Positions 10,905 through 64,000 are shown, numbered from the stretch's first letter. The stretch is 64,000 nucleotides of DNA from Hyphomicrobiales bacterium (GCA_013214705.1 JABSRZ010000004.1:496001-560000); one strand, 5' to 3'. The notes: generated by a model from the letters alone, not told the origin. Translations and numbers: made by a program.

Positions 10905-12068
10905 TTAAAGCTCAGCTTTGGCGGTGGCAAAAGCCCAATCTAACCAAGGCATTAACGCCGCAACATCTGACGCTTCAATGGTCGAACCCGCCCAAATGCG
11001 CAACCCAGCCGGGGCATCTTTATAGCTGCCAATGTCATAGGCTACATTTTCGGCATCAAGCAATGTGGCCATTTTTTTGGTAAACGCCGCTTGGTCTTTG
11101 GCATCTAATTCGGCAATTTCGGCATCGACCACTTTTATGCAAACCGATGTATTGGAGCGGGTATTTTCCAGCTCGGGTAAAAAATCCACCCACGCGGTTT
11201 TGGCAACCCAATCACTTATCTCGGCGCTATTGCTATCGGCACGCTTAATCATGCCGTGCAACCCGCCAACCGAACGCACCCAATTCAACGCATCCAAATA
11301 ATCTTCTACCGCCAACATAGACGGGGTGTTAATGGTCGCGCCAGTAAAAATGCCTTCGTTTAATTTGCCGTTAGAGGTCATGCGGAAGATTTTTGGCAGC
11401 GGCCATGCGGGGGTATATGTCTCCAGCCGTTCAACTGCACGCGGGCTTAAAATAATCATCCCATGTGCGCCTTCAGAACCCAAAACCTTTTGCCAGCTAT
11501 AGGTGGTGACGTCTAGTTTATCCCACGGCAAATCGGTGGCAAATACCGCGCTGGTGGCATCACATATGGTTAGGCCTTGGCGGTCATCCGCAATCCAATC
11601 ACCATTAGGCACACGCACACCAGATGTGGTGCCATTCCAAGTGAATACCACGTCATTATCAAAATTAACTGCGGCCAAATTGGGCAATTTGCCATAACCG
11701 GCAATATGTTTCGTGACATTGTCTAGCTTAAGCTGCTTGACCACATCGGTCACCCAGCCAGCGCCAAAGCTTTCCCATGCCAGCATGTCAACACCGCGCG
11801 CGCCAAGCATTGACCACAGGGCCATTTCGACCGCGCCAGTGTCTGAACCCGGCACAATGCCAATTCTATAATCGTCAGGAATTTGAAGAAGGTCTCTGGT
11901 TTGCTTGATGGCGTCGGCCAGTTTGGCTTTGCCCGGCTTAGACCGATGAGAACGCCCTAAAGCCGCAGCTTTAAGCGCATCGAGCGACCAATGAGGCCGT
12001 TTTGAACATGGACCAGAAGAAAAGTGCGTATTTGCCGGACGCAAGGCCGGTTTTGTAATAACATTCAT
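10905..12068 (-). CDS. serC: Phosphoserine aminotransferase
   Basis: SerC converts 3-phosphohydroxypyruvate and glutamate to phosphoserine and 2-oxoglutarate, using PLP. Its 387 residues match the alphaproteobacterial subclass, which starts [13 protein letters not shown]. The PLP lysine is in [15 protein letters not shown], near residue 196. It is the first gene of the serC-serA operon. A structured leader precedes it, and the Shine-Dalgarno GAGGA lies six bases from the ATG. In the 3' gap ATTAAAAATC/ATTAAAAATT forms a small tandem repeat before serA. Confidence 0.95.
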
Positions 12069-12206: not shown

Positions 12207-13013
12207 TTAGAACTTGTAACGCAAGCCAGCTTTAACTTCATGGGTAAACAGATTGTTATAAGCAAAATCTGGTGCAGAAGGCACTGTTTTATTGGTATTA
12301 ATGGTGTTTTTTATGGCCATAAATCTATAACCCACATCTAAATCGATATTTTTTGTAACACTCATCGAAACGCCTGCCATCAGTGCGCCTGCGGGTGTTA
12401 ATTCATTGCTGTAAAGTTCTGATGAGCTACCGTTAGACGCGCCCGTCCATGTCGCGTCTATATTTATACGTGAATGAACCAAACCGGCACCAACACCAAT
12501 ATAGGGCTTAAACGGGCTGTCATTTATATTCAGGTCATAATAGGCAGATAACATACCCATAAACTGTGCAGCTTTTACAGATACATTGACGGTTGTAGAT
12601 CCATCCGTACCTGTACCGGTAATTTTGAAAAAATCTCGATACCCTGCTGATAGTTCAAATCTAAAATCAGATAGTCTATAACCAGCAGATAAATCGGCAG
12701 TATATTGTTTCTCGTCGACCGCTATACTGTATACCACACCTCCGTTGGCAATGGCGTATGACGAGCTACCAGCCAAAGCCCTTACGCCATAACCGCCATT
12801 CACACTGACATAAAACCCACAATAACAGTTATCTGTAGACGATTTTCGAAGTTCCAAAATTGGGTCTTCAGCTTTGTATATGGCCGAATTGTCAAACAAT
12901 ATCGGCGCACGAAGCGCCGCTGCATCAGCTGCTAGCACTGGTAGCGCGCCGCTTAACACCGCGAGAATGATCGATAATTTAAATTTTGAAAAATATGCTG
13001 TTTTTACAAACAT
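12207..13013 (-). CDS. Outer-membrane beta-barrel protein (OmpA/OmpW-like porin family), paralogue 1
   Basis: This 268-residue protein has a Sec signal peptide (hydrophobic core LSIILAVLSGALPVLA, cleavage near residue 29). It then has alternating amphipathic strands ending in LRYKF, the C-terminal aromatic signal for outer-membrane assembly. Repeated elements such as FELSAGYRDF, FKPYIGVGAGLVHSR and LDVGYRFMAIKNT are typical of small eight-stranded barrels. It shares with the two following genes a Cys-x-Cys motif shortly after the signal peptide (DNCYCGFYVSVNGGYG) and a CtrA-type box upstream. It is the most divergent of the three. Its ligand or role is unknown. Confidence 0.85.
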   Translation of the reverse strand: MFVKTAYFSKFKLSIILAVLSGALPVLAADAAALRAPILFDNSAIYKAEDPILELRKSSTDNCYCGFYVSVNGGYGVRALAGSSSYAIANGGVVYSIAVDEKQYTADLSAGYRLSDFRFELSAGYRDFFKITGTGTDGSTTVNVSVKAAQFMGMLSAYYDLNINDSPFKPYIGVGAGLVHSRINIDATWTGASNGSSSELYSNELTPAGALMAGVSMSVTKNIDLDVGYRFMAIKNTINTNKTVPSAPDFAYNNLFTHEVKAGLRYKF

Positions 13014-13090
13014 TTAGCACCCCTAACTCAATACAATTGGTACAATTAATTGTTAACATAACAATTGATTCAACTATTACGAGAGTGGGG

Positions 13091-13105
13091 TTAATAACCT
13101 GTTAA
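13091..13105. promoter_or_regulatory. CtrA-type box upstream of beta-barrel paralogue 1
   Basis: TTAA-TAACCTG-TTAA matches the CtrA consensus TTAA-N7-TTAA and lies 78 bp before the start codon of the minus-strand gene ending at 12207. Binding is inferred; the spacing match is exact. Confidence 0.5.
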
Positions 13106-13171
13106 ATTTAAACTATATTTTAGAAATAAGTAAAATTTAACTGAAATTTTGACAATTATACTTGATTTACA

Positions 13172-14137
13172 TCAAAACCGATAGCGCGCGCCAAGCTTAA
13201 CTTCGTGTGATATGAAATAAGGGTATACAAGCGATTCGCCGCCAGCAAAACCCGCTATATTCACAATGGATGTGCCAGCCGCCGCATTGATGGCCGCCGC
13301 GTTATCTGCGCCCGCATAATTGGCATTGCCACCAACTATACCCATAAATTTATAGCCCAAATCTAAGGTGAAATTTTCTGCCACTTGCACGGTAAAACCG
13401 GCCATAGCCGTGCCAGCAAAGCTTCTGCCCAAAGTGTAGCGAATGTTGCCATTGGTGGTAACCGCCGCTTTGGTGAAACCCACCGCATAATTGGTTTTGG
13501 TATAGGCCAGGCCTGCCCCCAAGCCGACATAAGGCATAATCGGAATATTTGGAATTTCAACATCATAATAAATCGACATTAAAGCCGCATATTGCTCGGT
13601 CTTGCTCGAAATTGTATAAGTGCCGCCAGCCGTAGCCCCGGCAATGCTACCAGCTGCATGGCTGCGATATTCGCCAGACGCCTCTGCCCGCAACGCGCCA
13701 AATTTGTAACCAGCATTGATAGAAGCGGTATATTGGCGGCCACGCATTGCAATGGTTGGTATCAGCTCATTAAGCGCCGATGGGTTGGCAACAATGGGTG
13801 AGCCTTTAGTTAAATAACCCAAATTGCTAAAAGCATAGCCACCGCTAAGGCCAAAATAACCACCATCACAATAGCAATCTTGGCTCACTTGCTTGCGCAA
13901 GCCAACATCTGGGTAATTATCGTCATCAGGCAACAGACTGTCTTCAAACACTATATTTTCGGGCAATATTTCCGCATCATCTGCGGGCAATAAATTGCCA
14001 ATATCACCGCCGCCACTGCCGCCGCCACTGCCGCCGCCATTGACCAGATCGCCCGCATAGACCGCGGTAAACCCAATGGTTGAGGTGAATAATATGGTTA
14101 ATATTTTTGGTAGATAATTATGCGTTTTCGTGAACAT
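13172..14137 (-). CDS. Outer-membrane beta-barrel protein, paralogue 2 (with Gly-rich linker)
   Basis: From the ATG at 14137 it has 321 residues. The signal peptide is MFTKTHNYLPKILTILFTST with cleavage near AVYAGD. A Gly-Ser linker (GGGSGGGSGGG) coded by tandem GCC/ACT-type repeats follows, then an acidic stretch, the motif DCYCDGGYFGLSGGY, and a barrel ending GARYRF. It aligns along its length with paralogue 3 (shared LGYLTKG, MRGRQYTA, YKFGALRAE, KTNYAV, TTNGNIRY, GADNAAAINAA). The frame is open upstream to 14248, but the longer start has no signal peptide and reads through a GC-rich leader insert. The AAGGC near 14137 is a weak ribosome site. Function is unknown. Confidence 0.85.
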   Translation of the reverse strand: MFTKTHNYLPKILTILFTSTIGFTAVYAGDLVNGGGSGGGSGGGDIGNLLPADDAEILPENIVFEDSLLPDDDNYPDVGLRKQVSQDCYCDGGYFGLSGGYAFSNLGYLTKGSPIVANPSALNELIPTIAMRGRQYTASINAGYKFGALRAEASGEYRSHAAGSIAGATAGGTYTISSKTEQYAALMSIYYDVEIPNIPIMPYVGLGAGLAYTKTNYAVGFTKAAVTTNGNIRYTLGRSFAGTAMAGFTVQVAENFTLDLGYKFMGIVGGNANYAGADNAAAINAAAGTSIVNIAGFAGGESLVYPYFISHEVKLGARYRF

Positions 14138-14273
14138 ATTTTTGCCTTTAGCCTTTAGCCCTGAACCCCAGCGCCGCAGCGCCGTTGGCAAATTTGCAAG
14201 CCAACCCCCAGCGCGCCAGCACCACTTGCTATTTTGCAAGCCAATCAATGGCTAAATTAGTAAACAATCATAG

Positions 14274-14288
14274 TTAAAACATCATTAA
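14274..14288. promoter_or_regulatory. CtrA-type box upstream of beta-barrel paralogue 2
   Basis: TTAA-AACATCA-TTAA lies 137 bp before the start of the minus-strand paralogue 2. The flanking promoter sequence (TAGTAAAC...ATAGTTAA...CATTAATT) aligns with that of paralogue 3, so the regulatory region was duplicated with the gene. Confidence 0.5.
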
Positions 14289-14315
14289 TTTCCAAATTAT
14301 ACCATGCAGCGGACA

Positions 14316-14343
14316 CAAAAAAACCGCCCCGGTTTGGAGCGGT
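14316..14343 (-). terminator. Rho-independent terminator after beta-barrel paralogue 3
   Basis: On the minus strand ACCGCTCC pairs with GGGGCGGT (one G-U) around a 5-nt loop and is followed by seven T residues. It lies 54 bp beyond the stop of the 14397-15254 gene, so the two similar barrel genes are separate transcription units. Confidence 0.8.
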
Positions 14344-14396
14344 AAAATTTGAGCTATCAGACTCAGACTTAGATCCAGATTAAAACTAAGTGGATG

Positions 14397-15254
14397 TTAA
14401 AAACTATAGCGCATGCCAAGTTTAACCTCGTGGGAAGCAAAATCTGGATAAATAAGCGACTCCCCAGCTGCAAAGCCGGTTGGGTTAACCATCAATACAC
14501 CACCAGATGCCGCATTTATAGCCGCCGCGTTGTCTGCGCCCGCATATTTGGCATTGCCGCCACCTATGCCCATAAATTTATAACCGAAATCCAGCGTAAA
14601 TTTATCTGTCAATTGCACCGCAATGCCTGCCATTGCCGCACTTGCGGGGCTTGTGCCCAAGGCATATCGGATATTGCCATTGGTGGTAACCCCACCATCT
14701 GTATGCGTCACAGCATAATTGGTTTTGGTATAGGCTAAACCCGCCCCCAAGCCCAGATATGGCGTAATCTGAGTGTCTGGAATTTCCATATCATAATAGA
14801 GCGACATTAAACCCGCATATTGCTCGGTTTTGCTCGTCATCATATATGAACCGAGTTCGGTAGTGTCGCTGATAGTGCCGCCTGCATGACGGCGATATTC
14901 GGCGGACACTTCTGCTCGCAATGCCCCAAATTTATAACCAGCATTAACCCCAATTGTATATTGCTGACCACGCATAGCGACGGTCGGCACAAGTTCGTTA
15001 AGCTGGCCAAGGTTGGCCACAACTGGTAGGCCTTTGGTTAAATAGCCCAAATCACTCTGGGCATAACCAACACTGAGGCCTAGATAAATGCCATCGCAAA
15101 GACAATTTTGATTCGCCTGATCGGCCACATCAATTTTCGAGTAACTCTCGTCAAAATTGGTTATATCGGCAGCATAAATGGGTAGTGTTCCCAAAGATGA
15201 AGCCACCAATAAAGTTAACCATATTAGTTTAGGCCTATGTGATTTCGTCAACAT
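14397..15254 (-). CDS. Outer-membrane beta-barrel protein, paralogue 3
   Basis: This 285-residue protein has a signal peptide (LIWLTLLVASSLGTLPIYA, cleavage at about residue 28), the motif NCLCDGIYLGLSVGY, and a barrel domain ending GMRYSF. It is clearly homologous to paralogue 2 through most of its length but lacks the Gly-rich linker. Tandem arrangement, similar upstream sequence and a separate terminator point to duplication of the gene together with its promoter. The closest general family is the small OmpA/OmpW-like barrels, including surface proteins of other alphaproteobacteria. No specific role can be assigned. Confidence 0.85.
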   Translation of the reverse strand: MLTKSHRPKLIWLTLLVASSLGTLPIYAADITNFDESYSKIDVADQANQNCLCDGIYLGLSVGYAQSDLGYLTKGLPVVANLGQLNELVPTVAMRGQQYTIGVNAGYKFGALRAEVSAEYRRHAGGTISDTTELGSYMMTSKTEQYAGLMSLYYDMEIPDTQITPYLGLGAGLAYTKTNYAVTHTDGGVTTNGNIRYALGTSPASAAMAGIAVQLTDKFTLDFGYKFMGIGGGNAKYAGADNAAAINAASGGVLMVNPTGFAAGESLIYPDFASHEVKLGMRYSF

Positions 15255-15343
15255 ATGATTGTATCCACCCCCAAAAACTCAACGCAACAGACACCGCACG
15301 CAGTTTGCAAGCTAACAATCAATAATTTACTAAATAACTATAG

Positions 15344-15358
15344 TTAAGACAACATTAA
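15344..15358. promoter_or_regulatory. CtrA-type box upstream of beta-barrel paralogue 3
   Basis: TTAA-GACAACA-TTAA lies 90 bp before the start of paralogue 3 and aligns with the box of paralogue 2. Confidence 0.5.
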
Positions 15359-15392
15359 TTACAAATTAACTCAATTTAAAGTTAATTTGTAA
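15359..15392. repeat. 13-bp perfect inverted repeat downstream of glmM
   Basis: TTACAAATTAACT (15359-15371) and AGTTAATTTGTAA (15380-15392) form a perfect AT-only-stem hairpin with an 8-nt loop. It directly abuts the CtrA-type box of paralogue 3 and lies 34 bp after the glmM stop. It may be an operator; it lacks the GC stem and T-tract of a terminator. Confidence 0.5.
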
Positions 15393-15425: not shown

Positions 15426-16766
15426 TCACCCAATAGAGCTGATAATATCATCCACCACTTGTTCGGTAAGCCGGGCATCACTGCCTTCTGCCATCACCCT
15501 AATAAGCGGTTCAGTGCCCGATTTCCGTATCAGCACCCGGCCAGAATTTTTCAGCCTTTGCCGCCCGTCTTCTATCGCAGCTTTTACCAAAATTTTATCC
15601 AATGGGTCATCACCAGACGCATCATAACGTATATTTTTGAGCACTTGCGGCACCGGCTCAAAGCGGCTACAAAGCTCGCTGGCGCGCATGTCTTTTTCGA
15701 CCATGATAGAAATTATTTGGATGGCGGCCGTCAGCCCATCGCCAGTGGTATTAAAATCAGACAAAATGATGTGGCCAGATTGTTCACCACCCATATTATA
15801 GCCGTTTTTACGCATATATTCGAGCACATAGCGGTCACCAACATCGGTGCGGATAAAATCCATGCCATTGTCTTTGATGAAATTTTCTAAACCTAAATTA
15901 GACATCACAGTTGCCACAATGCCATTTTTTGCCAACGCGTCCTTGCTCTTCATATGTTGAGCAATGGCCGCCATAAGTTGGTCACCATCAACAACATCGC
16001 CTTTTTCATTGACCACAATGATGCGGTCGGCATCACCATCTAACGCGATGCCAATATCTGCCCCATGCGCCAACACGGTTTTTTGTAACAATTGTGGCGC
16101 GGTAGAGCCGCAACCTTCATTAATGTTAAATCCATTGGGTGAATTGCCAATTTCAATAATCTCTGCGCCTAGCTCCCACAACGCAGCTGGCGCCACTTTA
16201 TAAGCCGCGCCATTGGCACTATCGACCACAATTTTAAGCCCATCAAACCGCACTTTATTGCTTATGGTGCGTTTGGCAAATTCTATATATCTGGCATGGG
16301 CGCTGTTAATGCGCCGCGCACGCCCCAAATGTTTGGGTACAACCAATTTAGCATTGGTTGCATCATCCATATAACTTTCGATGAGCATTTCTTTTTCATC
16401 ATCTAATTTATAGCCATCTGGGCCAAATAATTTAATCCCATTGTCATGATAGGGGTTGTGCGATGCCGAAATCATCACCCCAACATCGGCCCGTAACGAG
16501 CGAGTTAACATGGCCACTGCGGGTGTTGGCATCGGCCCTAATAAAAATACATCCATGCCCACAGCGGTAAACCCAGCGACCAATGCATATTCGATCATAT
16601 AACCCGAAATTCTGGTATCTTTGCCAATCACCACCCGGTGGCGGTGGTTGCCATTGGCAAACACTTGGCCGGCAGCCATACCAAATTTAAGCGCCATATC
16701 AGCCGTTATCGGGTGTTTGTTCACCATCCCGCGCATGCCATCTGTTCCAAAATATTTACGGCTCAT
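15426..16766 (-). CDS. glmM: Phosphoglucosamine mutase
   Basis: GlmM converts glucosamine-6-phosphate to glucosamine-1-phosphate for UDP-GlcNAc and hence peptidoglycan and lipopolysaccharide. Its 446 residues match the family. The phosphoserine loop [17 protein letters not shown] holds the active Ser near 102. The metal-binding DGDADR loop is near 240, the GGEQSGH sugar loop near 325, and the phosphate-binding [12 protein letters not shown] near the C-terminus. ATG 16766 is preferred over the adjacent GTG at 16769, with AAAGGG upstream. It ends the ftsH-folP-glmM series, an order common in proteobacteria. Confidence 0.97.
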
Positions 16767-16819
16767 CACAACCCTTTCAATTTAATTGCCCAATAATTAA
16801 AGTATTTTAAATAAAATGA

Positions 16820-44869: not shown

Positions 44870-45928
44870 CTAAAGTTTTATGCAGGAGAGAAGGCGGTTT
44901 TGGGTGATTGCGCCTATATACATTTTGTCGTTAAATTCCACCGCGCCGGAAGCACCAGAAATGCCAAATCCATTTTCCAAATGCACGACTTTTAGTTCGC
45001 CGCGTTGGCCACCTTTGGGCGGAGTGGCTCTAAACACCACGCTCGGGGCTATATCTTTAAGCCCACTTATATGAAAAAAGGTCGAAAACATTTTGGGGTG
45101 GCCGGCAATGAAAAATGAACCATCTTGGTTGCGGCTAATGTTATCAACCCCGGCATCCATATTTAGGTTACCGGTTTTGGTGAGCGCATTGGTTTGCAAA
45201 TCGCGGTCATAGAATTCTAAGGTTCGCTTAAGCATGTCGGCCACATATAATTGTTGGCCATCGGCAGATAATTCGATGCCATTGGCATATTCAAACCCAT
45301 CTGCCACCACTTGGCTTAACTTGCCATCATAATAAATAACTTCGCTATATTCCAAACCAAAAATGCCGTTAAATAAAGAGGATATGCCACTGGTGCTGCC
45401 ATCTTGAGTGGCATAAAACCGCTCACCATCAATGGCGGTGATGCTGTTTAAACCACCGGGCAAACCGCTTATGGTTTCAATATGGGTTAGTTTAGCTTGC
45501 TTGACAGCAAAAATTTCGACCACGCTTTGGGCTTTGGCGGGGTGGCTGATGGCAAATAGGCGTTTGCTGCCATCAGCTAATTTTATCAAACTCATACCAT
45601 GCGGCCTAAACTTGCCGATAAAATCACCCGACACAAGTTGAATCTGTTCATTCGCACCATTCATATCTAACACATGAATATTGCCTCTGGTGTTAAACCT
45701 AGCCGCCCCATCCTGGCGGGCAGAGGCCGATATATATAATAGACCGGTGTCATAATCGGCGACAATGTCTTCCGGCCCCCACGGGGCAGCTATTGGCTGG
45801 CATTGATATTCTGATTGCTCACCAATGGTTTGAAACTCACCTTGCTGAATGAATAGGCGCACGGTTAAAAACGAAAATAATACCAAACCTGCAAACACAT
45901 ACCACAGGTAATTTTTTCTATTGATCAT
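44870..45928 (-). CDS. Membrane-anchored paraoxonase/arylesterase-like beta-propeller protein
   Basis: A single N-terminal helix (YLWYVFAGLVLFSFLTVRLF, about 8-27) anchors a 325-residue periplasmic domain. Motifs match the paraoxonase (arylesterase) family: WGPEDIVADYDTGLLYIS, RPHGMSL, GGLNSITAI, EYANGIELSADGQQLYVAD, DNISRNQDGSFFIAGHPK, and the C-terminal IGAITQNRLLSCIKL. These propellers bind calcium and hydrolyse esters or lactones. Lactonase activity is possible but not proven. Its ATG overlaps the stop of the upstream ABC-transporter gene as ATGA, so translation is coupled. Confidence 0.8.
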   Translation of the reverse strand: MINRKNYLWYVFAGLVLFSFLTVRLFIQQGEFQTIGEQSEYQCQPIAAPWGPEDIVADYDTGLLYISASARQDGAARFNTRGNIHVLDMNGANEQIQLVSGDFIGKFRPHGMSLIKLADGSKRLFAISHPAKAQSVVEIFAVKQAKLTHIETISGLPGGLNSITAIDGERFYATQDGSTSGISSLFNGIFGLEYSEVIYYDGKLSQVVADGFEYANGIELSADGQQLYVADMLKRTLEFYDRDLQTNALTKTGNLNMDAGVDNISRNQDGSFFIAGHPKMFSTFFHISGLKDIAPSVVFRATPPKGGQRGELKVVHLENGFGISGASGAVEFNDKMYIGAITQNRLLSCIKL

Positions 45929-47724
45929 GTTGCCGCCATTATATCTTGGGTTTGCAATTGCACAAGTTTTGCATAAGTGCCGTTTTTCTTCATCAACTGC
46001 TGATGATCGCCCTGCTCAACAATCTCGCCCTCGTCAATAACCAAAATACGGTCAGCATCGCGAATTGTCGAAAGCCTATGCGCCACAATAAGTGTGGTGC
46101 GGCCCTTGGCCAAATTCTCCAACGCGCGTTGCACTTTCTTTTCAGACTGGCTGTCTAAGGCACTGGTGGCTTCATCTAACAACAATACTGGGGCATTGCG
46201 CAAAATAGCCCGGGCGATGGCAATGCGTTGGCGTTGGCCACCGCTCAAAGCCATACCGCGCTCGCCCAATGCAGTGTTATAGCCATCCGATGTGCGCATG
46301 ATGAAATCATGCGCTTCCGCGGCTTTGGCAGCTTCTATCACTTCTTCGTCGGTGGCTTCTATGCGGCCAAAGCGAATATTCTCCATCGCGCTGTTGGCAA
46401 AAATCATCACTTCTTGCGGCACGGTGGCAAATTGGTTGCGCAAATCTGCAGGGTCAAAATTAGCTATCGGCTGGTTGTCCAAACTAATTTGGCCAGCATT
46501 AATATCGTAAAACCGCATCAGCAAATTAAATATGGTCGATTTGCCAGCACCAGAAGGCCCCACAAAGGCCACCATTTCGCCGGGTTTGACACTAAAATTC
46601 AAGCCTTTAAATAGTTGCACTTCTTTTTCGCCATAAGAAAATTCAACATTGTTAAACTCCACATGGCCTTCGACCTTTTTGGTCAATTTAATCGGGTTTT
46701 TAGGGCTTGTAATGGCCGGCGTCATGTCTAGCAATTGCATGATGCGTTCTGACGCACCGGCCATTTGCTGAATTTCGCCCCAAACTTGGCTAATCGCCGC
46801 CAAACTACTGGCCGCCAACACCGCATAAATTACAAATTCCGAAAGGTCTGCTATGCCTAATGAGCCATCTAACACCGCGTTAGCGCCCATCCACATAATG
46901 CCAACAATAGAGGCAAAAACCATAAAAATACTAATAGAGATAAGCCGCGCTTGAGCTTTAATGCGGGTGGTGGCAACCACCAAAGCGGTGTCGACACTGG
47001 CTCTAAAATTCTTACCAGCTTGTTTTTCATAGGTGAAAGATTGCACCGTATGAATTCCCGACAAAGTCTCGCCCGCATAGGCTGTGGTCTCGGCAAATGT
47101 GGTTTGAGCATCCTTAGCCAAAACTCGCACCCGGCCGCCCATAAGCACCAAGGGGATAATCATCAGCGGAATGGCGGCAACCACCATAAGGCTCAAATAC
47201 CAAGATGTGGTGAACATCATTATTACCGCGCCAACCATAATAAACCCGTTGCGCAGCACCATAGACACGCTCACCCCAACGGCCGATTTTATGCTCGTAG
47301 TGTCTGACGACAGGCGAGATAATAAATCGCCAGTTAGGTTTTGTTGGTAAAATTTTTGGTCTAGCCGCAGTAATTGCTCGTAAAATTTAGCCCGTAAATC
47401 GGCCACCACTCGCTCGCCAATTGACATCACAAAATAATAGCGAAACGCGCTAGAAACCGCCATAACCGTTGCCAATAGTAAAAAGGCCAAAAACCGAACA
47501 TTAATGGTTTCAATAACTTCGGCGCTAAAACCACTTTCAATTAAGTCGCCAACCAATTTGGGCAAAACCAGCGTCGCACCGGCAGCAATGGTTAAAAAAA
47601 TCAGCGCGCCAAAAACATATGTTTTTTGAACCCACACAAATGGCAGCAGCTTCACAATTGGGCTTAAATCGCCAAACATAGATTTCTTTTTGGGGGCTGG
47701 TTCGTCTAAAATTGCTTCGCTCAT
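45925..47724 (-). CDS. ABC exporter, fused membrane and ATPase domains (MsbA/TAP-like)
   Basis: The 599-residue half-transporter has six membrane helices at about 38-320. The ATPase domain has Walker A FVGPSGAGKSTIF near 394, signature LSGGQRQR near 493, Walker B VLLLDEATSAL near 517, and the H-loop IVAHRLST. Related alphaproteobacterial proteins near rpmE are annotated as lipid or multidrug exporters, but the substrate cannot be read here. It overlaps the paraoxonase-like gene by 4 bp and diverges from rpmE. Confidence 0.9.
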   Translation of the reverse strand: MSEAILDEPAPKKKSMFGDLSPIVKLLPFVWVQKTYVFGALIFLTIAAGATLVLPKLVGDLIESGFSAEVIETINVRFLAFLLLATVMAVSSAFRYYFVMSIGERVVADLRAKFYEQLLRLDQKFYQQNLTGDLLSRLSSDTTSIKSAVGVSVSMVLRNGFIMVGAVIMMFTTSWYLSLMVVAAIPLMIIPLVLMGGRVRVLAKDAQTTFAETTAYAGETLSGIHTVQSFTYEKQAGKNFRASVDTALVVATTRIKAQARLISISIFMVFASIVGIMWMGANAVLDGSLGIADLSEFVIYAVLAASSLAAISQVWGEIQQMAGASERIMQLLDMTPAITSPKNPIKLTKKVEGHVEFNNVEFSYGEKEVQLFKGLNFSVKPGEMVAFVGPSGAGKSTIFNLLMRFYDINAGQISLDNQPIANFDPADLRNQFATVPQEVMIFANSAMENIRFGRIEATDEEVIEAAKAAEAHDFIMRTSDGYNTALGERGMALSGGQRQRIAIARAILRNAPVLLLDEATSALDSQSEKKVQRALENLAKGRTTLIVAHRLSTIRDADRILVIDEGEIVEQGDHQQLMKKNGTYAKLVQLQTQDIMAAT

Positions 47725-47901: not shown

Positions 47902-47917
47902 TTAAAAGCTAGTTAAC
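47902..47917. promoter_or_regulatory. CtrA-type box upstream of rpmE
   Basis: TTAA-AAGCTAG-TTAAC matches the full CtrA consensus, 52 bp before the rpmE start, in the gap shared with the divergent ABC exporter gene. It could act on either gene. Confidence 0.5.
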
Positions 47918-48325: not shown

Positions 48326-48853
48326 TTAGTCAGGTTGTTTAAACGCCGCCTCTAACCGGCTTAATTGGTCTCTAGCGCCGCTTTGCACTATTGGCTCACC
48401 ATCTAGTTTAGACCAAAATTGCTTATCGATTTTTTGCAATCTCACCTGCATGTCAAAACTCTTATGAATAAGATCAATCAACTGCACTGGCAATTCTTCA
48501 ATTAAAGTTGTCACGTCATCTACCCGACGTTTGGACAATTTAATGCGGTTGCTATCGGATTTAATTTCATCAACACTTAGCTCGCCATTTTTAAGAGCCC
48601 GTTGCAACAATAACCAACTGGCAATTTGCATGAGCCGCGTGGTTAAGCGCATGCTTTCAGATGCATAGGCCAAAGCTTGCGGGCGGCTTAACTCGCGGGA
48701 TTGCTTGCGGCCATCAACATCCAAATAATTTGCAGTTTCTTCCACCAGCGCCATGCCTTCGTTAAACAAAGATTGGAACTGATTTGAAGCGGCAAAAAAT
48801 TCGACATAATTCACAGTTTCTGGAAATTTATTTTTGTCATTAGATAAGTTCAT
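48326..48853 (-). CDS. rcdA: RcdA-family protein (DUF1465), adaptor for CtrA degradation
   Basis: In Caulobacter, RcdA is a helical-bundle adaptor that helps deliver CtrA and other proteins to ClpXP in the CpdR-RcdA-PopA hierarchy. The 175-residue, all-helical protein matches DUF1465: VNYVEFFAASNQFQSLFNEGMALVEETANYLDVDGR at the start, LAYASESMRLTTRLMQIASWLLLQRA in the middle, and a disordered acidic-polar tail. A CtrA-type box lies 70 bp upstream. In other alphaproteobacteria rcdA neighbours rpmE, as here. Confidence 0.88.
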   Translation of the reverse strand: MNLSNDKNKFPETVNYVEFFAASNQFQSLFNEGMALVEETANYLDVDGRKQSRELSRPQALAYASESMRLTTRLMQIASWLLLQRALKNGELSVDEIKSDSNRIKLSKRRVDDVTTLIEELPVQLIDLIHKSFDMQVRLQKIDKQFWSKLDGEPIVQSGARDQLSRLEAAFKQPD

Positions 48854-48922: not shown

Positions 48923-48938
48923 TTAACAAGTGGTTAAC
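48923..48938. promoter_or_regulatory. CtrA-type box upstream of rcdA
   Basis: TTAA-CAAGTGG-TTAAC is an exact match to TTAA-N7-TTAAC, 70 bp before the rcdA start. RcdA acts in CtrA degradation, so this would form a feedback loop. Confidence 0.55.
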
Positions 48939-62397: not shown

Positions 62398-62746
62398 CTA
62401 TGTCTCATCCCTAAAATATGAAACCCGATATTATGCGAAACCGGCTAAAATTCAACCCAATATTTGCCATTTTTTGGCAACAAATTAACTTTCTGTAAAC
62501 CAGAATTGCAGTTTGCATTCGATAAACCGTTAACCATTGCCTATATATGGTTATAGCAAAGCTTCAAGCATATCTGACCATTAGCAAATTTACCGGCGCA
62601 TTTAAGGTTAATTTGGTTAACATTTGGTCTCAATTGGAAACAAGCCCTTAACACACTGTTAACAAATTCACCTCAATATGGCACAATCTATACCGATTTA
62701 GGCAGCCTAAACAATTGTCACCCGCCGTATAAACCAGTTTTTAGTA
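62398..62746. other. 349-bp intergenic gap between pepF and the response regulator
   Basis: No gene is visible. The gap is AT-rich and contains several TTAAC words, among them one exact CtrA-type box (62648). No clear sigma-70 promoter or terminator was found. Confidence 0.6.
62648..62663. promoter_or_regulatory. CtrA-type box upstream of the sigma-54-type response regulator
   Basis: TTAA-CACACTG-TTAAC matches TTAA-N7-TTAAC exactly, 84 bp before the response-regulator start codon. Confidence 0.55.
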
Positions 62747-64000
62747 ATGAGTAAACAGATGACAAACACAATTTTTATTGTAGATGATGACCCGACGCAG
62801 CGGCGCATATTGCAACAAGTGATAAGCCGCGATGGCTATAAAGTTGTGGCGGCCGAAGGCGGGCCTGAAGCTTATGCCATGTTACAAAATTCAGATTTCA
62901 AACCCGATGTCATGATATTAGATTTAATGATGCCGCAATTAGATGGCTTCATGTTGCTCGATAAAATGAACGCAATGGGTCTGCACATTCCGACCATTGT
63001 GCAAACCGCGCAAGGTGGCATAGATACCATCGTAAAAGCCATGCAAAAAGGCGCAAAAGACTTTATGGTCAAGCCTGCTAGCACCGAACGCATATTGATA
63101 TCCATTAAAAATGCACTCGAAACCAAGAGCTTGCATAAAGAAATTATCCGCATCAATAAAACCAAATCAGGCCGCTTTTCGTTTGGCGATTTAATTGCCG
63201 CCAGCCCGGCGATGGAGCGGGTTAAACAGCTCGGCTTAAAAGGCGCGCAAAGCAATATCCCGATATTAATCGAAGGTGAAAGCGGGGTTGGCAAAGAAGT
63301 ATTCGCCCGCGCCATCCAAGGCAGCGGTACGCGCTCTGGCAAGCCATTTATAACCGTTAACTGCGGTGCAATACCCGAAAACCTAGTTGAATCTATATTA
63401 TTTGGTCACGAAAAAGGCTCATTCACCGGCGCCACCCACAAACAAATCGGCAAATTTGCCGAGGCCGATACAGGCACCTTGTTTTTAGATGAAGTCGGCG
63501 AGTTACCACTGGCCACACAAGTTAAATTATTACGCGCCATTCAAGAAGGTGAAATAGAACCAGTTGGCTCATCCCGCCCGGTAAAAGTAGACATTCGAAT
63601 CATTTCTGCCACCAATAAAGACATGATTGAAGCGGTTAAAAATGGTGAATTTAGAGAAGATTTATATTATCGGTTAAATGTATTTCCCATCAACATACCG
63701 CCATTGCGCGCCCGCCTAGAAGACATTGCCGAACTATGTCGCCATTTCATCACCCGGTTTGCGGTCGAAGAAGGCAAAAACATCACCGGCCTATCGCTGC
63801 AGGCGTTAGAAATGATGTCACAATATACTTGGCCGGGCAACGTGCGACAGCTTGAAAACACTATTTTTAGAGCGGTTATATTATGCGAAAAAAATGAGTT
63901 GGACATCAGCGATTTCCCGCAGATTGCCGCCCATGTAGATGGCTATATTTCTCACACACCCGCCGCGCCAGAACCGCGGCTAACTGCCGATAAATACCAT
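62747..64000 (+). CDS. Sigma-54-interacting response regulator (NtrC family), incomplete at the window end
   Basis: The frame opens at ATG 62747 and stays open for 418 codons to the edge. The receiver domain (about 5-120) has IFIVDDD, DVMILDLMMP (phospho-Asp) and the VKPA lysine. The AAA+ domain has Walker A GESGVGKE near 184, GTLFLDEVGELP (Walker B) near 250, and NVRQLEN. The sigma-54 contact motif reads GSFTGA instead of GAFTGA, a change at a loop position that contacts sigma-54. The C-terminal Fis-type domain is beyond the window. A second in-frame ATG at 62759 is possible. Confidence 0.9.
   Translation, partial: MSKQMTNTIFIVDDDPTQRRILQQVISRDGYKVVAAEGGPEAYAMLQNSDFKPDVMILDLMMPQLDGFMLLDKMNAMGLHIPTIVQTAQGGIDTIVKAMQKGAKDFMVKPASTERILISIKNALETKSLHKEIIRINKTKSGRFSFGDLIAASPAMERVKQLGLKGAQSNIPILIEGESGVGKEVFARAIQGSGTRSGKPFITVNCGAIPENLVESILFGHEKGSFTGATHKQIGKFAEADTGTLFLDEVGELPLATQVKLLRAIQEGEIEPVGSSRPVKVDIRIISATNKDMIEAVKNGEFREDLYYRLNVFPINIPPLRARLEDIAELCRHFITRFAVEEGKNITGLSLQALEMMSQYTWPGNVRQLENTIFRAVILCEKNELDISDFPQIAAHVDGYISHTPAAPEPRLTADKYH

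Follow-up and report, generated by a model that had tools for sequence, protein, structure and literature searches.

In a stretch of 64,000 nucleotides of genomic DNA (GCA_013214705.1 JABSRZ010000004.1:496001-560000; hereafter the window) from an uncultured member of the order named Rhizobiales (Hyphomicrobiales) in GTDB, three tandem genes encoding outer-membrane proteins (OMPs) are each preceded by an exact copy of TTAA-N7-TTAA. In both Caulobacter and Hyphomonas, CtrA has TTAA-N7-TTAA(C) as its consensus site (PMC4287350, PMC7200025), and the exact box recurs at a fixed distance from a candidate -10 element in front of homologous genes in most of the order as sampled. We think it rather likely that the locus represents an OMP gene, activated by CtrA and with a product probably tethered to peptidoglycan, that has expanded in tandem. 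The genes and their promoter elements are listed below, with coordinates counted from the first base of the window.

12207-13013, minus strand: OMP gene 1 (P0001, 268 amino acids), with a signal peptide, a mature N-terminus of Ala-Asp, a CxC pair (C63, C65) and an 8-strand barrel
13074-13079, minus strand: candidate -10 of gene 1 (TAATAG), 11 bases past the box, at a position conserved in the order-wide logo
13091-13105, minus strand: CtrA-type box of gene 1, sense TTAACAGGTTATTAA, with its 5′ edge lying 92 bp ahead of the start codon
13172-14137, minus strand: OMP gene 2 (P0002, 321 amino acids from the ATG at 14137), with a Gly-Asp N-terminus, a Gly/Ser-rich tail, a CxC pair (C88, C90) and a barrel
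14257-14262, minus strand: candidate -10 of gene 2 (TACTAA), 11 bases past the box
14274-14288, minus strand: CtrA-type box of gene 2, sense TTAATGATGTTTTAA, then CTATG
14397-15254, minus strand: OMP gene 3 (P0003, 285 amino acids), with an Ala-Asp N-terminus, a CxC pair (C51, C53) and a barrel, about 65% identical to gene 2
15327-15332, minus strand: candidate -10 of gene 3 (TAGTAA), 11 bases past the box
15344-15358, minus strand: CtrA-type box of gene 3, sense TTAATGTTGTCTTAA, then CTATA
15355-15369, minus strand: second TTAA-N7-TTAA of gene 3, overlapping the first box, so that three phased half-sites result

The boxes exceed chance in the three OMP gaps

An initial annotation of this DNA had placed an exact box before each of the three genes and had described paralogues 2 and 3 as alike in both promoter and protein. 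Boxes were indeed found at 13091, 14274 and 15344, together with an overlapping fourth at 15355; the proteins of genes 2 and 3 share about 65% identity and their promoters align. The annotation had also supposed that boxes would be more frequent in these gaps than chance allows, and this holds. The genome contains 166 exact copies of TTAA-N7-TTAA in 3.52 Mb, corresponding to 0.03 expected in the three OMP gaps (588 bp). First-order Markov resampling of the gaps gave means of 0.08, 0.03 and 0.04 boxes; all three gaps were hit with P=5e-5, and a total of at least 4 boxes was reached with P=1e-4. Intergenic DNA of the window outside the OMP gaps, as delimited by crude gene calls, has 4 boxes in 9,080 bp. 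GANTC methylation sites were not enriched in these promoters (28 observed, 48.6 expected).

The box and its distance to a candidate -10 are conserved across the order

We assembled the best OMP homologue of each genome within GTDB Rhizobiales/Hyphomicrobiales, picked on protein score only, into a high-scoring set (n=90, from 26 families, with 40-69% GC and a mean of 60%) and a lower-scoring set (n=20). An exact box lay 20-200 bp upstream of 88 of the 90 high-scoring homologues, its 5′ edge mostly at -90 to -110, and the other two had one-mismatch boxes nearby. The lower-scoring set had an exact box in 14/20 cases, giving 102/110 for both sets together, where whole-genome counts predict about 0.0017 boxes per upstream window by chance. 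The spacing was specific: among the 90 homologues, N5, N6, N8 and N10 occurred in 0, 4, 2 and 0 cases, versus 88 for N7, and the reversed pattern AATT-N7-AATT occurred once. Control regions upstream of serC had an exact box in 0/29 cases, and class homologues outside the order, which are remoter proteins, in 0/27. Since the 90 genomes share kinship, these are not 90 independent events, though 26 families are represented. Homologues with the box and, mostly, with Ala-Asp at the mature N-terminus were found in Mesorhizobium, Kaistia, Nitratireductor and others.

In the box-aligned logo, strong conservation downstream was limited to an A at +27 (92%) and a T at +31 (81%). The A and T at those hexamer positions are the most important bases of a sigma-70 -10 element. 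Because they stand at a fixed distance, we place the box at about -38 to -24, over the -35 region; the candidate -10 elements of genes 1 to 3 all retain the conserved A. Judged by sequence geometry, therefore, the box lies over -35, as activation calls for. Full CtrA sites in Caulobacter likewise begin near -35, that of ctrA P2 at -39, and CtrA-activated full-site promoters there have TTAA-N7-TTAA over -35 with the -10 at a fixed distance (PMC4287350). The promoters described here differ in having an OMP gene as target and, in 56/90 homologues, a third TTAA 9 bases upstream. This third half-site, which came to light through the spacings N9 (56/90) and N20 (55/90) and occupies positions -13 to -10 before the box, possibly serves cooperative or delaying CtrA binding.

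In Mesorhizobium, Nitratireductor and Chelativorans the OMP gene occurs as a tandem pair with a separate box for each copy (locus pairs L249/L261, L251/L260, L253/L259, L254/L262 and L255/L263), and the second copies share a variant promoter ending ATGGTTAACAAT.

CtrA and other candidate targets in the same genome

A gene for a CtrA equivalog (NF045991, 419 bits against a cut-off of 350) is present in the genome, 13 kb ahead of the window. The protein is 82% identical to a Caulobacter CtrA query, an approximate figure; the NF045991 match is independent of that query. Within the window, an exact TTAA-N7-TTAA at 48923-48937 lies 70 bp upstream of an equivalog of RcdA, the CtrA-degradation adaptor (48326-48853, minus strand). 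CtrA is known to target rcdA in Caulobacter (PMC4287350), and we read this box as an indication, from the window itself, that CtrA targets are marked by TTAA-N7-TTAA in this organism. Control of the OMP genes by CtrA, which the initial annotation had proposed, is thus strongly supported by the order-wide box, the fixed-distance -10, the CtrA equivalog and the box before rcdA, all of them evidence from sequence; timing of the genes within the cell cycle would follow from such control.

Brucella abortus Omp25 is also a small OMP from the Hyphomicrobiales, and CtrA binding upstream of omp25 is known (Francis et al. 2017, as cited in PMC10538546; PMC10787603), with an effect of CtrA on the amount and distribution of Omp25. 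In Brucella the bound region extends from -389 to -337, whereas the box here lies about 90-150 bp upstream, over -35.

Two further boxes in the window precede genes of other kinds. An exact TTAA-N7-TTAAC at 62648-62662 lies about 85 bp upstream of a gene for a sigma-54-type response regulator (NtrC/FlbD-like; 62747-64000, plus strand), which is plausibly a further CtrA target. Another exact box, at 47902-47916, lies in intergenic DNA about 180 bp from the start of a gene for an ABC-type exporter (45925-47724, minus strand), which it precedes.

The proteins are predicted barrels, probably tethered to peptidoglycan

P0001, P0002 and P0003, all encoded on the minus strand, are OMPs of the Pfam OMP_b-brl/Opacity/Surface_Ag_2 group. 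P0001 exceeds the Pfam cut-offs of OMP_b-brl, Opacity, Surface_Ag_2 and OmpA_membrane, and P0003 exceeds that of Opacity; P0002 is marginally under the Pfam cut-offs. An AlphaFold model predicted from the window's three sequences has 8 long strands, at modest confidence (mean predicted local distance difference test, pLDDT, 61; predicted template modelling score, pTM, 0.57). By fold the model matches NspA, OmpA, OmpW and a Legionella porin, and Opa is a further fold match of these proteins. Among curated families the highest-ranking is the Rickettsia adhesin Adr (NF052636), at a weak 37 bits against a cut-off of 210, which leaves the proteins outside that family. The 8-strand barrel fold is thus common to the window proteins, Neisseria NspA and Opa and the OmpA membrane domain; to our knowledge, none of these other proteins has a CtrA promoter, an Ala-Asp tail or a strand-1 CxC.

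Ala-Ala-Asp forms the mature N-terminus in 88/90 order homologues (87 by script and L150 by eye), and is followed by a tail before strand 1. According to a review, OMPs of the Hyphomicrobiales are anchored to peptidoglycan via N-terminal alanyl-aspartyl motifs (PMC12729407), and attachment to peptidoglycan is described for AopA1, AopA2 and AopB of Agrobacterium (PMC11527210). The present system has genomic LD-transpeptidases and, in genes 1 and 3, Ala-Asp in common with these three proteins and with Brucella Omp25 and Omp2b, which are tethered by LD-transpeptidase (PMC11527210, PMC12729407); four YkuD proteins (LD-transpeptidases) are encoded in the genome. It differs in that the tether is predicted and the motif varies, being Gly-Asp in gene 2 and Ser-Asp, Gly-Asp or Gly-Gly in members of the genus. 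Given this mixture, tethering is likely rather than proven, and we regard the OMPs as probably tethered.

A proposed mechanism and its alternatives

We propose that each gene has its own promoter, at which CtrA~P would bind TTAA-N7-TTAA over -35 (about -38 to -24) and recruit RNA polymerase to the -10 element 11 bases further on, so that the OMPs would be produced in the CtrA-high, pre-divisional phase. The exported barrel would insert in the outer membrane, and its freed N-terminus, on a flexible periplasmic tail, would probably be joined to peptidoglycan by an LD-transpeptidase. In this way, newly made outer membrane would be fastened to newly made wall as the cell grows at its pole and divides.

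Several observations weigh against this proposal. Gene 2 and genus relatives show Gly-Asp, Ser-Asp or Gly-Gly in place of Ala-Asp, as described above. When the window is scored with a promoter profile derived from the order, genes 1 and 2 rank high but gene 3 does not, and we dropped this position weight matrix as evidence because gene 3 was not singled out. Genes 2 and 3 have a competing -10 (TATAGT/TATGAT) nearer the box. In the lower-scoring set, the exact box is absent from 4/4 f28 and 2/3 f32 loci (the f28 loci are L333, L335, L338 and L341; two f28 homologues in the high-scoring set carry the box). Lastly, the initial annotation had expected both box and CxC to be kept in close relatives, and this was borne out for CxC, which all of them have, but not for the exact box: at the orthologous position, four relatives within the genus have a box that is off by one base, in the first half-site (GTAA-N7-TTAAC). 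Caulobacter fliQ and fliL use imperfect CtrA sites, CTAA-N7-TTAA and AAAA-N7-TTAA (PMC11264516), so binding may persist where the perfect box has been lost.

The main rival to CtrA-dependent activation accepts that CtrA is bound but has it repress or time the genes, the true -10 being TATAGT or TATGAT just past the second half-site, where bound CtrA would block polymerase. Sigma-70-like pairs that suit this arrangement are present, TTGTAA-16-TATAGT at gene 3 and TTGGAA-17-TATGAT at gene 2. There are also precedents in Caulobacter, where CtrA acts as a repressor from sites over the -10 (PMC4287350) and where additional CtrA sites further upstream delay pilA (PMC11264516). However, the bases conserved order-wide at a fixed distance fit a -10 starting 11 bases past the box, the nearer hexamer is unconserved, and sites found by a promoter scan are no more numerous than in shuffles; we consider repression or delay through the nearer -10 unlikely. 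A different protein might instead own the box, such as another OmpR-family response regulator or MucR. Several further OmpR-family regulators are encoded in the genome, and BvrR also controls Brucella omp25 (PMC10538546), yet the sequence is the CtrA consensus of two genera and stands before rcdA in the same window, so we give this explanation a still smaller chance. That the boxes are mere products of AT-rich intergenic DNA is highly improbable. The OMP gaps are 56-75% AT, and the window's total of 9 boxes is only modestly above chance, being reached by 4/100 shuffles; against this stand the resampling of the gaps themselves, and 88/90 homologues with exact spacing specificity in genomes averaging 60% GC.

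A separate question is whether, instead of being tethered, these are simply Opa/NspA-like adhesins or small porins, with the Ala-Asp start a mere by-product of the signal peptide. The fold matches to NspA, Opa, OmpA and OmpW would suit such proteins, as would the best curated family, a weak match under its cut-off to an adhesin model. An incidental Ala-Asp sits less easily with the presence of Ala-Ala-Asp in 88/90 homologues, followed by a tail before strand 1, and with the documented role of N-terminal Ala-Asp in Hyphomicrobiales (PMC12729407). Of the alternatives weighed here we take this one most seriously, and still prefer tethered OMPs activated by CtrA.

A possible order-wide link between CtrA and the cell envelope

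CtrA binding upstream of Brucella omp25 and the tethering of OMPs are known already; what is new is the depth of promoter conservation. Open-licence literature yielded no report of one syntenic OMP gene carrying this promoter order-wide. We had tried ctrA as a positive control, and it failed as such, an exact full box lying within 500 bp in just 2/30 upstream regions (half-sites uncounted). The exact full box of the OMP gene is thus more conserved than ctrA's own promoter. Whether a near-invariant CtrA-activated promoter on a syntenic, tether-type OMP gene belongs to the core CtrA regulon of almost the whole Hyphomicrobiales, and couples outer-membrane-to-wall attachment to the cell cycle order-wide, seems to us evenly poised. 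Hyphomicrobiales grow at one pole, and their outer membrane is anchored by barrel proteins, not by Braun's lipoprotein. If the same CtrA promoter does drive one barrel gene order-wide, attachment of membrane to wall would be among the regular outputs of the cell-cycle clock, rather than a peculiarity of Brucella. The retention of the box before the same gene in most of the order as sampled suggests that the building of this surface protein is tied to cell division.

The three genes probably descend from a single gene between glmM and serC

The OMP genes lie in a conserved neighbourhood, in the minus-strand order that we take, naming genes from their translations, to be ftsH, folP, glmM, OMP3, OMP2, OMP1, serC, serA. 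Further features of the locus are:

10905-12068, minus strand: serC, conserved neighbour downstream of the OMP locus (21/25 genomes compared)
14323-14343, minus strand: intrinsic-terminator-like hairpin with a T run, after gene 3
15426-16769, minus strand: glmM, conserved neighbour upstream of the OMP locus

Because of the terminator-like hairpin, gene 2 is probably its own transcription unit; its start is most likely the ATG at 14137 rather than that of a longer TTG open reading frame.

A search of genome contigs with P0003 for related loci found no relative. A GlmM scan then gave as the nearest named relatives the metagenome-assembled genomes NORP194, DT_98 and BB6 (GlmM identity 79-83%). 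Between glmM and serC, relatives of the same genus have one OMP gene; the three at this place in the present genome are all that it has. In the tree, genes 2 and 3 pair as sisters (support 100/99). Less well supported (88/81) is the position of gene 1, drawn as the earliest branch of the genus clade. The promoters of the genus relatives can be aligned with those of genes 2 and 3 and retain TTAAC[CT]ATG and TTTAC[TA]AAT-like blocks. The best OMP match lies upstream of serC, on the same strand and at most 12 kb away, in 21/25 genomes compared, and at most 500 bp away in about half; given this synteny, the compared homologues are largely orthologous. The best reading is that the three OMP genes are a lineage-specific tandem expansion of one ortholog sited between glmM and serC across the order.

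The CxC motif is a feature of the genus

The CxC pairs, NCYC at 62-65 in P0001, DCYC at 87-90 in P0002 and NCLC at 50-53 in P0003, are the only cysteines in each protein. All three proteins have the motif, as initially annotated, but it does not follow directly on the signal peptide: it lies 22-60 residues past the predicted cleavage site, in the opening residues of beta-strand 1, where the barrel faces the periplasm. The same-genus homologues (L006-L009) all keep it. Outside the genus, merely 1/90 order homologues has CxC near the corresponding place, and we therefore rejected the motif as a family hallmark. Being conserved only within the genus, it is no part of what makes the family CtrA-regulated, and the N-terminal Ala-Asp is both better conserved and more informative. 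At the junction of tail and barrel, CxC would have been added at the level of the genus, most likely as a periplasmic disulfide; the genome encodes DsbB, which we count towards this. The pair may instead be a metal site or an intermolecular link.

In a group of order homologues (for example L012, L016, L020, L027, L028, L030, L146, L149 and L169), a single strand-1 Cys accompanies a Cys in a downstream GxGC. The pairing held in 3/3 cases in the large set, with 2 more homologues having GxGC only, and it suggests a cross-strand disulfide at the same barrel edge.

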